Part shown: piece by piece, positions 45,400 through 50,057 of the stretch
How the letters are laid out: each line of letters begins with the position of its first letter
Position numbering within the stretch: position 1 is the stretch's first letter
Assembly: GCF_900187945.1 (NCBI RefSeq)
Contig: NZ_FYEH01000001.1
Location: forward strand, 186,001 to 250,000
Direction: 5' to 3'
Source: Arboricoccus pini
GTDB taxonomy: Bacteria; Pseudomonadota; Alphaproteobacteria; Geminicoccales; Geminicoccaceae
Length of the DNA: 64,000 nucleotides
Program-made: the position numbers and the translations under genes
The notes under the pieces: generated by a model
The model's input: only the letters and a program-made list of their open reading frames with translations
Databases searched by the model: none
What the model was told of the DNA's origin: nothing

Positions 45400-47517
45400 T
45401 CACTGCAAGGCGGCGATCGATGCCAGGATCAAGAGTGCCACGATATTGGTGATCTTGATCATCGGATTGATCGCAGGCCCCGCCGTATCCTTATAGGGAT
45501 CGCCCACCGTGTCGCCGGTGATCGCGGCCTTGTGAGCCTCGGAGCCTTTGCCGCCGAAATTCCCCTCCTCGATATATTTCTTGGCATTGTCCCAGGCGCC
45601 GCCGCCCGAGGTCATCGACAACGCAACGAAGATGCCCGTGACGATCGTGCCGAGAAGCAGGGCGCCAAGGGTCTCCAGCGCCGCCGCCCGCCCGGCTATC
45701 GCCGCAATCAGCAGATAGACGATGATCGGTGCCAGCACCGGCAGCATCGAGGGGATGATCATCTCGCGGATGCCAGCCCGCGTCAGCATGTCGACCGCCC
45801 GGCCATAATCCGGCTTCGACGTGCCGGCCATGATGCCCGGATCCTCGCGAAATTGCCGCCGCACCTCCTCGACGATGGCACTGGCCGCGCGCCCGACGGC
45901 CTGCATGCCCAGGGCACCGAAGAGATAAGGCAGCATGCCGCCCAGGAAGAGGCCGACCACGGTAAAGGGGTTGGCCAGATCGAAGCTGACCTTGAGGTCG
46001 GGGAAATAATAGTGAATGTCCTCGACGAAGGCCGCGAAGAGGACCAGGGCCGCCAGGGCCGCCGAGCCGATGGCATAGCCCTTCGTTACCGCCTTTGTCG
46101 TGTTGCCGACGGCATCCAGCGCGTCGGTATGTAACCGTACCTCCGGCGGCAGTCCCGCCATCTCGGCGATGCCGCCGGCATTGTCGGTCACCGGCCCGTA
46201 GGCATCGAGGGAGACGACCAGCCCCGTCAGTGCCAGCATCGTCGTCGCGGCGACGCCGATGCCATAGAGCCCGGCATTGTGGTGGGCGACCAGGATGCCG
46301 GCACAGATCACGATCACCGGCAGGGCCGTGGCCTCCATCGAGATCGCCAGGCCCTGGATGACATTCGTCCCATGACCCGTGGTCGAGCTCCGGGCTATGC
46401 TCTTGACCGGCCGGTGGCTCGTGCCCGTGTAGTATTCGGTCACCAGGATCAAGAGCCCCGTCACTGCAATGCCCGTCAGCGCGCAGAGCCAGACGTTGAA
46501 GCCGCCGAACAACACCGTCGTGTAGCCGCCCGAGCGCGCATCGTAGGTCGTGCCGAAACCGAGCACGATCCAGGTGACGGGCAGGAGGGCAATCGCGGAA
46601 ATCCCGGCCGCCCCCCAAAATCCCTTATAGAGCGCGCCCATGATGTTGTTGCTGGCTCCCAGCTTCACGAGATAGGTGCCGGCGATGGAGGCCAGGAGGC
46701 AGATGCCGCCCACCACCAGCGGATAGAGCATCAAGGCCGAGGTAAAGGGCGAATATTCGAAGAAGATGGCACCCAGGAGCATCGTCGCCGAGACGGTGAC
46801 CACATAGGTCTCGAAAAGATCGGCCGCCATGCCGGCGCAGTCGCCGACATTGTCGCCCACATTGTCGGCGATCACCGCCGGGTTGCGCGGATCGTCCTCG
46901 GGAATGCCCGCCTCGACTTTGCCCACCAGGTCGGCGCCCACATCCGCACCCTTGGTGAAGATGCCGCCACCCAGACGGGCGAAGATCGAAATCAGCGAGG
47001 CGCCGAATGAAAGGCCCAGGAGTGCTTCCAGGATCGTGCGCGTCGAGGCCCCGAAGATCAACAGCAGGCCATAATAGATGGCCACACCAAGGAGACCCAA
47101 TGCCACCACCAGCATGCCGGTGACCGCACCAGACCTGAACGCCACGTCCAGGCCGCCGGCCAGCCCCGACGTCGCCGCAGCCTGCGCCGTCCTGACATTC
47201 GCCCGCACCGACACGTTCATGCCGATGAAACCAGCACAGGCTGAAAGGACGGCACCCAGAAGATAGCCGATGCCGACGGCGAAACCCAGAAACAAGGTCA
47301 GGATGACAAAGACGATCACGCCGACGATCGCGATCGTCCGATATTGCCGGTTGAGATAGGCGCTGGCCCCTTCCTGAATGGCGGCCGCGATCTCCTGCAT
47401 CGTCGCATTGCCCGCCGGCATCGCCAGGATCTGCGCCCGAGTAAGATAGCCATAGGCCAGCCCTGCGCCGCCACAAGCGAGCACGAGGACAAAGTAGAAC
47501 CACTCGAGTCCCGTCAT
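45400..47517 (-). CDS. hppA: K+-insensitive H+-translocating membrane pyrophosphatase
   Basis: 705 residues from the ATG at 47517 with GAGG seven bases upstream (a GTG two codons earlier is in frame). About 16 membrane helices. The pyrophosphate-binding segment is [20 protein letters not shown] continuing with [18 protein letters not shown] (about 190-238). Pumping and hydrolysis motifs recur near the C-terminus ([25 protein letters not shown]). The K+-sensitivity site is GNTTKA with Lys at about position 475, the mark of the K+-independent, proton-pumping subfamily. It conserves energy from biosynthetic PPi. Convergent with bamE. Confidence 0.97.
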
Positions 47518-47733
47518 GGGCACCTCAATGATTATGAGTTCGTTATTCTTGCGCGCGAGCGGTGATCCTCATCTCGTCCTTTAGCCTTCCCTGACGCGCG
47601 TCTCGTACGTGAAGCGTTCGAATTCGCAGGTCGATGCAGCCCCTTGGCCGGAGCCGTCACCACGAGCAGTAGTCCCGCAGTTAATGAGTGTCCATGAAAG
47701 AAGGGGAGAAGAATAAACCTCCGCCTCCGGACA

Positions 47734-47833
47734 GCGATCCGATGATCGCCGTCTCATTATGCGGACGTGAGGAGGAAGCCTTCGGCGACCAGGAGGCACC
47801 GCCTCCTGGACCTGGGGCGATGGGGTGGGTCGG
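47734..47833 (+). repeat. Left copy of a ~100-bp inverted repeat element
   Basis: Begins GCGATCCGATGATCGCCG and contains the hairpin CCAGGAGGC (47789-47797) / GCCTCCTGG (47801-47809) with a 3-nt loop. It matches the reverse complement of 48699-48797 over nearly its whole length (about three quarters identical by eye), including compensatory changes in the hairpin. The companion copy lies beyond the next gene. Confidence 0.75.
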
Positions 47834-47863
47834 ACAGCGGGCGGCGCATGAGATCTGTTATAT

Positions 47864-47879
47864 AAGGACTATATTCCTT
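47864..47879. promoter_or_regulatory. 16-bp near-perfect palindrome before the 47894 gene
   Basis: AAGGACTA (47864-47871) and TATTCCTT (47872-47879) are symmetric at 7 of 8 positions, and weaker symmetry extends outward to 26 bp. It is 15 bp upstream of the ATG and shares GGACTATA with the irr dyad. It is placed like an operator; the regulator is unknown. Confidence 0.45.
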
Positions 47880-47893
47880 GTACAGTGGGCCCC

Positions 47894-48664
47894 ATGGACT
47901 GGACCGATCGTCTCGCCCCCAAGCCGCCACGGCGCCGCTACCCCTTCTGGGCCAGGCGCGACCGCAGGCGCACGGCCCAGGCCATGGCGGCCGGACGTAC
48001 CGCCCAGGAGATGGCGCTCGTCAATCGCGTTCCCGTCATGGAAGTCGAGAAGCTGCTCCGGGACGAGGAGTTCCAGGAACTGCTTCGGCATTACAGCGCG
48101 GTGGCATCGCTCCCTTATGAGGAGCGCATCGCCCGGCTGGCACCCCTGGCGCTCTCCATCCTGGAGATGGGTCTGGAGACGGGCGACATGCGGGTCGCCA
48201 TGTTCGTCCTCCATGAGCAGAACCGGGGCCGCGATCCGGCCCGGAGCATGGCCCAGCGCTTCGTCGCCCGGGCCGAGGCCGCCGCACGGGAGGTGCACCC
48301 CAGGCCCGAGCGTCGCCCACCCGTACCGCCGGCCGAACCGCGCCAGCCGCCGGGCGACTGGAGCCATTGCGCGGCGATACCCGAGCACCAGGAGGAGGCG
48401 GAAGCGCTGGCCCTGGCCGATCTGCGCCGGGTGGCGCGGGACAACCGGGCTGAGCTGAACCGGCTGGCGGACAAGCTGGCGTCGGAAGCGGAGCGGATGG
48501 GTACGGGCCTTGGTCCGAACGCCTTGCCCTCGCTTCGCCTTGAGGCGGTGGCGCGTGGTGTGGCGCGGTACTGGCACGAGCGGCCGGCCGAGAGCATGCA
48601 GGCGGCGATACGCTTGCAGGGTGCGAGGAAGATCGGCCGCTACGGGACCGGCCCGCCCTCGTGA
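47894..48664 (+). CDS. Hypothetical protein with HTH-like N-terminal half, flanked by inverted repeats
   Basis: 256 residues from the ATG at 47894 (GTG 47885 is in frame). A very basic N-terminus (PKPPRRRYPFWARRDRRRTAQ) leads into a helical segment TAQEMALVNRVPVMEVEKLLRDEEFQELL that looks like a helix-turn-helix. Next comes ERIARLAPLALSILEMGLETGDMRVAMFVLHEQNRGRDPA, then an Ala/Arg/Pro-rich linker and a C-terminal helical region with Cys-His in WSHCAAIPEH. It resembles hypothetical proteins seen in other Rhodospirillales but belongs to no named family I recognise. No DDE or tyrosine recombinase motif is visible. Confidence 0.68.
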   Translation: MDWTDRLAPKPPRRRYPFWARRDRRRTAQAMAAGRTAQEMALVNRVPVMEVEKLLRDEEFQELLRHYSAVASLPYEERIARLAPLALSILEMGLETGDMRVAMFVLHEQNRGRDPARSMAQRFVARAEAAAREVHPRPERRPPVPPAEPRQPPGDWSHCAAIPEHQEEAEALALADLRRVARDNRAELNRLADKLASEAERMGTGLGPNALPSLRLEAVARGVARYWHERPAESMQAAIRLQGARKIGRYGTGPPS

Positions 48665-48698
48665 TCCTGGCCGGCTGAGACTCGATCCTCACCCGCGA

Positions 48699-48797
48699 CC
48701 GACAACCCCACCCCAACCCGGGTCCAGGGGGCGGTGCCCCCTGGCCGCCGGAGGCATCCCTACTTTCTCGCAGCGAGACGGCGATCATCAGATCGCC
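48699..48797 (-). repeat. Right copy of the ~100-bp inverted repeat element
   Basis: Read on the minus strand it starts GCGATCTGATGATCGCCGTC, as in the left copy. It contains the hairpin CCAGGGGGC (48724-48732) / GCCCCCTGG (48736-48744), where A/T pairs of the left copy are replaced by G/C pairs on both arms. The two copies face each other across the hypothetical gene. Confidence 0.75.
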
Positions 48798-48819
48798 GAG
48801 GGCAGCGGGAGGCTGCTTC

Positions 48820-49323
48820 CTACTGCAAGAATCCCCATCTCGGCACGGCAGGTTCGGCTTGGGCCCAGTGCCATTGGCCGTTGGCCTGGCAGGCTGTGGT
48901 GAGGAAGAAGGATTTGGTTTTTTTATCAACGACGGTGAAGGCGACTTCCTTGCAGGGTGCGATGGGGTTGTTGATGAGTCGGGTAACCTGCATGCGGCCT
49001 TCGGCGTTGCCGATAGGAATTGAGTGCTCGACTTTCCATGCGCGGGTTTCGCCGACCTGCATGAGGCCGACTTCATGGATGATGGCTTCCTGTTCCGTGC
49101 CCTGGCGGGTTCGCATGATGTAGTTGAGTGAGGCGTCGGTGGCAGCTCGGGTACCGACGGCGACGCCGTAGCCTACATAGGGGTTGGCCGTGAGGGCGCC
49201 TGCGGTGCCGCCGGCGGCTAGGCCGACCAGGTCGGGGGCGGCAGCGCAGCCTGAGACGATCGTGGCGAGGAGGAGGAGGGCTGCGGTCTGCCATCTGGTG
49301 CGAAGGACGGCCAGGGCCCTCAT
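48820..49323 (-). CDS. Putative lipoprotein (paralogue B of a tandem pair)
   Basis: 167 residues from the ATG at 49323, which overlaps the stop of the upstream paralogue (ATGA). Signal with lipobox ATIVSGC. A Gly/Ala-rich stretch (VGLAAGGTAGALTANPYVGYGVAVG) looks like a glycine-zipper segment. The C-terminal half has WKVEHSIPI, CKEVAFTVVDKKTKSFFLTTAC and ends WHWAQAEPAVPRWGFLQ, sharing pattern and end with the neighbour. The two Cys may form a disulfide. Function unknown; probably an envelope lipoprotein. Confidence 0.78.
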   Translation of the reverse strand: MRALAVLRTRWQTAALLLLATIVSGCAAAPDLVGLAAGGTAGALTANPYVGYGVAVGTRAATDASLNYIMRTRQGTEQEAIIHEVGLMQVGETRAWKVEHSIPIGNAEGRMQVTRLINNPIAPCKEVAFTVVDKKTKSFFLTTACQANGQWHWAQAEPAVPRWGFLQ

Positions 49324-49835
49324 TGCAGGGAGCCCCAACGGGCGGTCGAGGGCTCGGCTGCTGCCCATTGCCAGCCATCGGCTTCCTGGCAGATCGTCGT
49401 TGTATAGACGCCGTTGCTTGGTTTCTTGTCCATTTTGTCGACGGAGAAGACGAGTTCCTTGCAGTTCAGGCCCGGTCCCTGGATGACTCGGCTGACGGCG
49501 ACGCGTCCTTCCTTGTCTTCCTCGATCGGCACGCTATGGCTGATCGACCAGGGGGCAACTTGGCCGGCTGCCAAGGGCCCGCCCGCCTTGGCGATGGCTG
49601 CCTGTTCGTTCGCGTGTAGGCTACGCTCGCCATATTGCAGGCCCGCATTGGCGATCGAGCGAACGCCCAGGCCGATGCCGGTCGCCAGCATGGCATTGTC
49701 GGTCAAGGCCGTCGCGGCGGCGGCGCCGCCGACGCCGGCGACGTCGGCTGTCGTTTCGGTCAAAACGGATCCGCAGGCGCTGAGCAAGAGTGCCTGCGGC
49801 AGCAAAATGAGTAAGGCCAGCTTGCGCCAAGCCAT
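49320..49835 (-). CDS. Putative lipoprotein (paralogue A of a tandem pair)
   Basis: 171 residues from the ATG at 49835, fixed by GGAGGAG six bases upstream. Lipoprotein signal with lipobox ALLLSAC. Gly/Ala zipper-like segment (GVGGAAAATALTDNAMLATGIGLGV), then WSISHSVPIEEDKEGRVAVSRVI, CKELVFSVDKMDKKPSNGVYTTTIC and the end WQWAAAEPSTARWGSLQ. Side by side with the downstream gene, it shares the SIPI/SVPI, CKE-F-V, TT-C and W-WA-AEP-RWG-LQ patterns, which shows tandem duplication and divergence. Function unknown. Confidence 0.82.
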   Translation of the reverse strand: MAWRKLALLILLPQALLLSACGSVLTETTADVAGVGGAAAATALTDNAMLATGIGLGVRSIANAGLQYGERSLHANEQAAIAKAGGPLAAGQVAPWSISHSVPIEEDKEGRVAVSRVIQGPGLNCKELVFSVDKMDKKPSNGVYTTTICQEADGWQWAAAEPSTARWGSLQ

Positions 49836-49868
49836 CACCAACTCCTCCAACATCGTCTTATTGAAACT

Positions 49869-49898
49869 TTATTGGTCGCAACCGAGAGGATCAGTCAA
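49869..49898 (-). promoter_or_regulatory. Candidate promoter of the lipoprotein pair
   Basis: On the minus strand TTGACT (49893-49898) is followed after 18 bp by CAATAA (49869-49874), 33 bp before the start codon. The -35 is good and the -10 is weak. Confidence 0.4.
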
Positions 49899-50057
49899 GG
49901 TGACAACTTATTACTTATAGGTTGAAAACCTTCGCCCCGACGGGTTGACTACGATTGAACAAAGCCTGGATCGGGGTAGCTTTTGTCATGATCTTGTCTT
50001 TCGTCGACAGCCGGGCAGCGCTAGCGTTTTGACAATAAGCGTCGAAGCGGGGGAGCG

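Follow-up and report, generated by a model that had tools for sequence, protein, structure and literature searches.

The window analysed here is a stretch of 64,000 nt corresponding to positions 186001-250000 of contig C23 in the genome of Arboricoccus pini (4.07 Mb, 28 contigs). Within it, a unit of about 1.0-1.1 kb is located between hppA (45400-47523, minus strand) and a small lipoprotein-like gene (48820-49368, minus strand), both named by eye. The unit contains a gene of 256 codons on the plus strand, which extends from the ATG at 47894 to the stop codon at 48662-48664. This gene, followed through the ORF list, protein searches, alignments and structural models, codes for a helical protein of a family without a name; a second frame of 256 amino acids, starting at 47688, is not the gene of the unit. 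In agreement with the first-pass annotation, which had described a single gene enclosed by inverted ends, two inverted arms (47774-47816 and 48717-48759) of 43 nt, 86% complementary and 900 nt apart, were found to be the longest and best of the 23 inverted pairs in 46500-50000, the next one being 30 nt in length (73%). The adjoining minus-strand genes at 48820-49368 and 49320-49853 are both lipoprotein-like and resemble tandem paralogs (26-nt repeat, 88%). An Rfam search of 47400-49000 gave 0 matches at E values up to 1, and the RNA family reading was rejected.

The core left end, composed of GCCTTCGGCGACC and a hairpin, occupies 47778-47816 and was recognised by the inverted-pair search and by alignment, 16 left ends being present in the genome. 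The core right end (48717-48755), a hairpin followed by CCGCCGGAGGC, was recovered in the inverted-pair, signature-site and genome searches. Both hairpins (47789-47809 on the left, 48724-48744 on the right), detected by a pattern scan and included in a covariation test, are 21 nt long with a stem of 8 bp; no strand is assigned to any of the end features. Outside the right core lies an optional module (48756-48820) with two small palindromes, which terminates in GCGGGAGGCTGCTTCC and adjoins the stop codon of the next gene. Its inverted counterpart on the left (47723-47777), read from the sequence and the aligned copies, is diverged in the window. As read from the aligned copies, the terminal consensus GGAAGNNGCCTYCGGC is common to both sides. 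Beyond the core, some copies carry the second module, with its two small palindromes and a similar terminus, and others end with the core or are truncated inside the module. Since the module may be present, absent or cut at different points, the length of the ends is variable.

The hairpin pattern scan, which left the right ends at the contig ends of C2 and C21 outside its reach, yielded 33 hairpins, 32 of them within or beside units of the family and one unrelated. Comparison of the two hairpins of the window revealed that a single stem pair differs, being A-T in one and G-C in the other. Over nine distinct end strings (7 distinct hairpins), which include the C26 paralog (67% identical protein) and a second subfamily (C13, C24) and leave out five ends without the full stem, all 72 of 72 stem cells are paired. 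Changes on both sides affect three of the eight stem pairs (8 cells; shuffled mean 2.6), the covariation score was reached by 0 of 500 shuffles, and slid controls gave 0; the count of changed pairs by itself was equalled by 31 of 500 shuffles. The remaining five stem pairs are invariant. These data support a constraint on hairpin pairing, with which RNA and DNA structure are alike compatible. The compensatory changes proposed in the first-pass annotation are thus found in one pair within the window and in three pairs among the copies, but they do not extend to the five ends in which the full stem is missing: four of the 16 left ends (C3, C5, C10, C26), where a longer module takes the place of the outer arm, and one of the 20 right ends (C5), where the stem is shifted by one base.

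The search for further copies, suggested at the outset, revealed at least 27 matches of the left end (40 of 52 candidates scored) and at least 26 of the right end (40 of 54 scored), mostly beside the gene, while the 256-aa protein gave 38 matches in the same genome. Among the left-end matches, 25 of 27 have a gene match no more than 300 nt away; the two exceptions (C13, C24) are near contig ends, where they adjoin, by eye, the C-terminus of the second subfamily. On the right, 24 of 26 matches lie within the same distance, and the other two (C2, C21) reach contig ends. Because 49 of the 53 end matches adjoin the gene and the other four are near a contig end, two chance landings are unlikely. 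An exact 16-nt signature of the right end occurs at 20 sites, 17 beside the gene and three near contig ends (C2, C13, C21), and its left-end form at 12 sites, 12/12 beside the gene; in total, the signature scan gave 76 sites and the reversed control 15, the remaining sites carrying 1-2 mismatches and not being inspected one by one. Among the scored candidates (40/52 left, 40/54 right), in which a weak solo end may escape, 0 solo ends were found in this genome, and neither other genes bordered by these ends nor gene-less pairs of ends came to light.

Altogether there are at least 18 five-prime ends, comprising the 16 left ends and two further gene starts, near-identical but lacking the left hairpin (C27, C6), and at least 20 three-prime ends, 19 of which show at least 87% identity and one 77%, the gene part of the latter being 94% identical. 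One more right end, decayed and accompanied by a remnant of the gene (C14:175762-176147), comes on top of these 20. The copy number of the unit is therefore about 18-20, these counts being lower bounds. Seven genes are complete, six of them flanked by a hairpin end on either side, and 24 of the 56 contig ends are located inside the unit. Hence the initial description of a repeat-bounded structure of IS-like size with no transposase motif holds, with ends and gene recurring together about 18-20 times.

Two kinds of copies depart from this arrangement. In C27 (L029) and C6 (L054), near-identical gene bodies are preceded by another upstream region, with the operator layout described below kept and the left hairpin absent; this reads as a swap close to the start codon, perhaps by gene conversion into an older paralog. 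The second subfamily, situated at both ends of contigs C13 and C24 (L024, L025, L113, L114), has a related end hairpin and a different version of the gene; it is split by the contig ends, and its C-terminal part was read by eye.

All seven complete genes are intact (7/7, 0 stops). Their pairwise dS ranges from 0.08 to 0.15, the pooled pN/pS is 0.16, and 48 of the 74 variable columns fall at third positions. The four-gamete test was failed by 397 of 741 pairs of two-state informative sites. In view of this low pN/pS and of the incompatible site pairs, purifying selection keeps the protein working while the copies recombine and exchange sequence. The dS values, together with little decay (the one remnant in C14), point to old copies homogenised by conversion more than to recent transposition.

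Upstream of the gene, a palindrome AAGGA-N6-TCCTT (47864-47879, plus strand) is situated between promoter-like hexamers, the -10-like one being TACAGT (47881-47886, plus strand, as read from the sequence). The general form, AAGGA or TAGGA, a short spacer, and TCCTT or TCCTA, recurs in a similar layout upstream of diverged paralogs in the same genome and of the copies in a second genus (G003), making it a probable operator; autoregulation via the palindrome would be the simplest reading. A scan with the paralog form at up to two mismatches gave 26 sites and the reversed pattern 24, that is, no excess, in what is a weak test, the pattern having been built from diverged paralogs and the main copies, at three mismatches, lying beyond its reach. 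Six sites have 0-1 mismatch, and three of these precede genes of the family; beside the other three, tblastn revealed no credible family member.

The ends are often found shortly after a stop codon. Of the 16 left and 20 right ends whose flanks could be read, 13 of 36 have a facing stop codon within 35 nt, or 14 when the right end of the window, missed by the script owing to its outer module, is counted. In the window, 8.4% of the intergenic positions qualify, so that the binomial chance is 4e-6 for 13/36 and 6e-7 for 14/36, with genes called by codon composition, a single window as control and the two ends of a unit not being independent. In the search for target-site duplications, made as a follow-up to the first-pass annotation, no direct repeats of 6 nt or more were found in the flanking 25 nt of the six units with both ends; 5-nt matches occur in two of the six, at unequal offsets and with exact ends uncertain. 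The relatives searched comprised no genome of the same genus. In the hppA neighbourhood of 80 relatives, the lipoprotein genes adjoining the element gave no match, and no empty site was seen; omlA, named by eye, is retained near hppA in many of them.

Searches of Pfam, NCBIfam and PHROGs with the window protein and ten family members returned no significant transposase match, the best chance matches being to a sigma factor (E 0.0086) and UvrB (E 0.019), for one member each. PADLOC gave 0 matches, the reading as a defence system being rejected, and a sequence search of the PDB produced nothing significant (best E 0.008). Structure prediction, also proposed at the outset, did not lead to a fold: models from one sequence of the full protein (pLDDT 58.6) and of its N-terminal part (125 residues, pLDDT 77.3) are both helical and of modest confidence, and Foldseek searches with an E threshold of 0.001 brought no hit in the PDB for either model or in BFVD for the N-terminal one. 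A second structure comparison gave a best Z of 5.4, to a cytochrome P450. A likeness to the small subunit of phage terminase, noted by eye, found no support, with no match in PHROGs, Pfam, BFVD or the PDB and with models of modest quality. The residues invariant in ten members are mostly arginine, small and hydrophobic ones, E198 and E200 being the only invariant acidic residues, and neither an acidic triad nor an HUH motif is conserved among them. When two remote members replaced two others in a second set, invariance was restricted to R25, G34 and P136. The N-terminal part, which is basic, is probably DNA-binding.

The family is narrowly distributed. In the order, represented here by one family, its profile has matches in 6 of 31 genomes; class-wide, 2 of 385 genomes have one, both from that same family (five candidates scored per genome). 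With the window protein as query no relatives were found in plasmids and phages, viral contigs contained none (6 and 2 peptide patterns), and a named genome collection gave none in a weak test with one peptide pattern only; one weak hit in G013 (E 9e-4, with one stop) was attributed to chance and left out. Other genera possess one or two homologs each, three of which lie next to a gene that by eye is NAD-synthetase-like. The latter (L090, L091, L092 in G030, G005, G027) are single homologs from three species of one genus and possibly represent the ancestral chromosomal form.

In G003 (second genus, g4) there are six family matches. Three are near-identical over the regions they share, two of these along about 2 kb, the third being truncated. 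The flanking sequences differ from those in A. pini. A 291-nt left-hand stretch from G003 has at least 23 matches at 17 places in that genome (40 of 121 candidates scored) and no match in the genome of A. pini. Among the scored matches, 13 of the 17 places are without the gene and four have it (one truncated). Both flanks are retained at two gene-less places, with most of the gene gone. Ten ORFs chosen at nine of the 13 gene-less places comprised nine from ordinary metabolic or regulatory Pfam families and one with no match; by Pfam, none was a transposase. The repeat, of about 290 nt on C1 of G003, is exemplified by L129:1000-1290 (1860044-1860334), and several places have two matches in line. 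Two gene copies of G003 (L097:1477-2982 and L105:1003-2436) differ by an in-frame 63-nt stretch of the palindromic-repeat type, which reads as a repeat entering the coding sequence. In addition, a 20-nt palindrome located beside the second subfamily, CGCGCTTCGCGCTGCTTGAG, occurs in 2 of the 31 genomes of the family (reversed control: 0 in 31), at eight sites in A. pini (C10, C13, C23:100394, C24) and 31 in G003. A repeat that went undetected in the remaining 29 genomes is thus common to the two with the strongest multiplication of the gene.

Bacterial elements with such an anatomy usually encode a recognisable transposase. The unit is like an insertion sequence, as these are generally described, in its size, single gene, many copies and inverted terminal repeats (16 left and 20 right ends), yet no transposase of a known family was recognised, although the protein may be a transposase of a new kind; in further contrast, six units showed no target duplication of at least 6 nt, and the length of the ends varies. 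MITEs, which by definition contain no coding gene, and TIMEs, as commonly described, are similar in their inverted ends and dispersal, and gene-less derivatives do occur in G003, but in A. pini the unit bears a selected gene (7 intact) and no parent transposon with the same ends was seen. A REPtron, as described in PMC8266576 and PMC3733652, combines a RAYT/TnpA-REP gene with REP palindromes and thereby likewise has a gene bordered by palindromes. In contrast, the unit has no Y1/HUH domain, its hairpins are not preceded by GTAG, and no solo palindromes were found in its own genome (40/52 and 40/54 candidates scored), G003 having a different dispersed repeat. The Y1/HUH transposase PF01797 (IS200/RAYT) was found in 0 of 2 genomes, the control having detected it in 5 of 14 known genomes, and the RAYT/IS200 identity was rejected on this absence. 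Moreover, in PMC8266576 the REP enzyme gene is described as mostly single-copy and without evidence of mobility, with REPs genome-wide, whereas the gene and ends of the unit are dispersed together. The placement of the unit soon after stop codons is similar to that of E. coli REPs: according to PMC12306157, an earlier study cited there found a significant share of them 1-20 nt behind the nearest ORF, though the count made in PMC12306157 itself is 446 of 4,072 within 15 nt. CGTC-tagged palindromic repeats, which PMC3733652 describes as 20-40 bp long, mostly alphaproteobacterial and not associated with transposase genes, resemble the unit as palindromes without an assigned transposase, but the palindromes of the unit border one particular gene and have the flanks GGTCC...CCTGG[TC]CGCCG. 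The literature search brought up no such element. In its anatomy the unit works like an IS or a REPtron, but it differs from both in having no recognised transposase, and from the REPtron also in that its genome yielded no solo palindromes among the scored candidates.

The unit is dispersed as a whole, its hairpins and protein are under constraint, its copies recombine and are frequently placed behind stop codons. We tentatively read it as an IS- or REPtron-like one-gene mobile element spreading under the drive or direction of the protein it encodes, with a probability of roughly 0.43. In such an element the protein would bind its own operator and thereby limit expression as copies increase; the same protein would recognise the end hairpins and drive or direct a transposition-like spread, the strand chemistry being provided either by the protein itself through an undescribed activity or by another enzyme that it recruits. 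This reading is favoured by the at least 18 five-prime and 20 three-prime ends beside the gene, the multiple copies in G003 as well, the hairpin pairing, the pN/pS of 0.16, the stop-codon placement and the operator layout in both genera. Against it count the lack of a transposase or nuclease signature, of a target duplication of at least 6 nt and of any empty site seen, the variable ends (5/36 without the full stem, C27 and C6 without the left hairpin), the little decay among copies, and the different, mostly gene-less flanking repeats of G003. That the 256-aa family constitutes a new class of DNA mobility protein, binding hairpin ends, targeting the 3' ends of genes, restraining itself via a palindromic operator and moving its gene without known transposase chemistry, in a lineage where two or more families of such elements, each with ends of its own, have evolved, is an improbable extension.

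The signature missing from the 256-aa protein would be accounted for if a transposase encoded elsewhere moved the unit in trans via its hairpin ends and the protein were autoregulated cargo. The gene-less flanking repeat of G003 (13/17 places) and the two places there with both flanks and most of the gene missing look as trans-mobilised derivatives do. Such a passenger unit is nevertheless rather unlikely: in A. pini no other gene with these ends and no gene-less pair of ends was found among the partly scored candidates, the HUH enzyme responsible for moving REPs was detected in 0 of 2 genomes (the transposase survey of the own genome being PF01797 only), 9 of 10 ORFs at the gene-less places of G003 belong to ordinary metabolic or regulatory families, and selection on the protein is strong. 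The intact genes (7/7), the same pN/pS, the 397/741 failed site pairs and the little decay would fit a host gene family, that is, a lineage-specific DNA-binding regulator of benefit in many copies, multiplied by rare duplication and homogenised by gene conversion, with the hairpins as terminators or recombination borders. The hairpins often lie close behind stop codons, a typical position of terminators, and other genera have one or two homologs, three of them beside the NAD-synthetase-like gene (by eye). However, copies on many contigs share inverted-end borders in different surroundings, with 24/56 contig ends inside them, and duplication and conversion alone do not readily make new loci with both ends, so that we consider a host family unlikely. 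Two independent insertions of a dispersed palindromic repeat beside a resident gene, an option raised in the first-pass annotation, could draw on the left-hand repeat of G003, which is mostly without the gene; in A. pini this option finds no support, as both ends repeatedly accompany the gene, the scored candidates contained no solo end, and the same pair surrounds the same gene at unrelated loci, which makes it highly improbable.

About twenty copies with a selected gene and no recognisable transposase are unusual compared with normal elements of such anatomy, and the unit is small enough to be synthesised and tested directly. It also bears on the question of what moves palindromic repeats without an assigned enzyme, such as the CGTC repeats of PMC3733652. 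If the mobile element reading holds and the enzyme is its own, the unit would hide a new class of recombinase; otherwise, it would represent a cargo gene whose function is preserved through trans-mobilisation and gene conversion.
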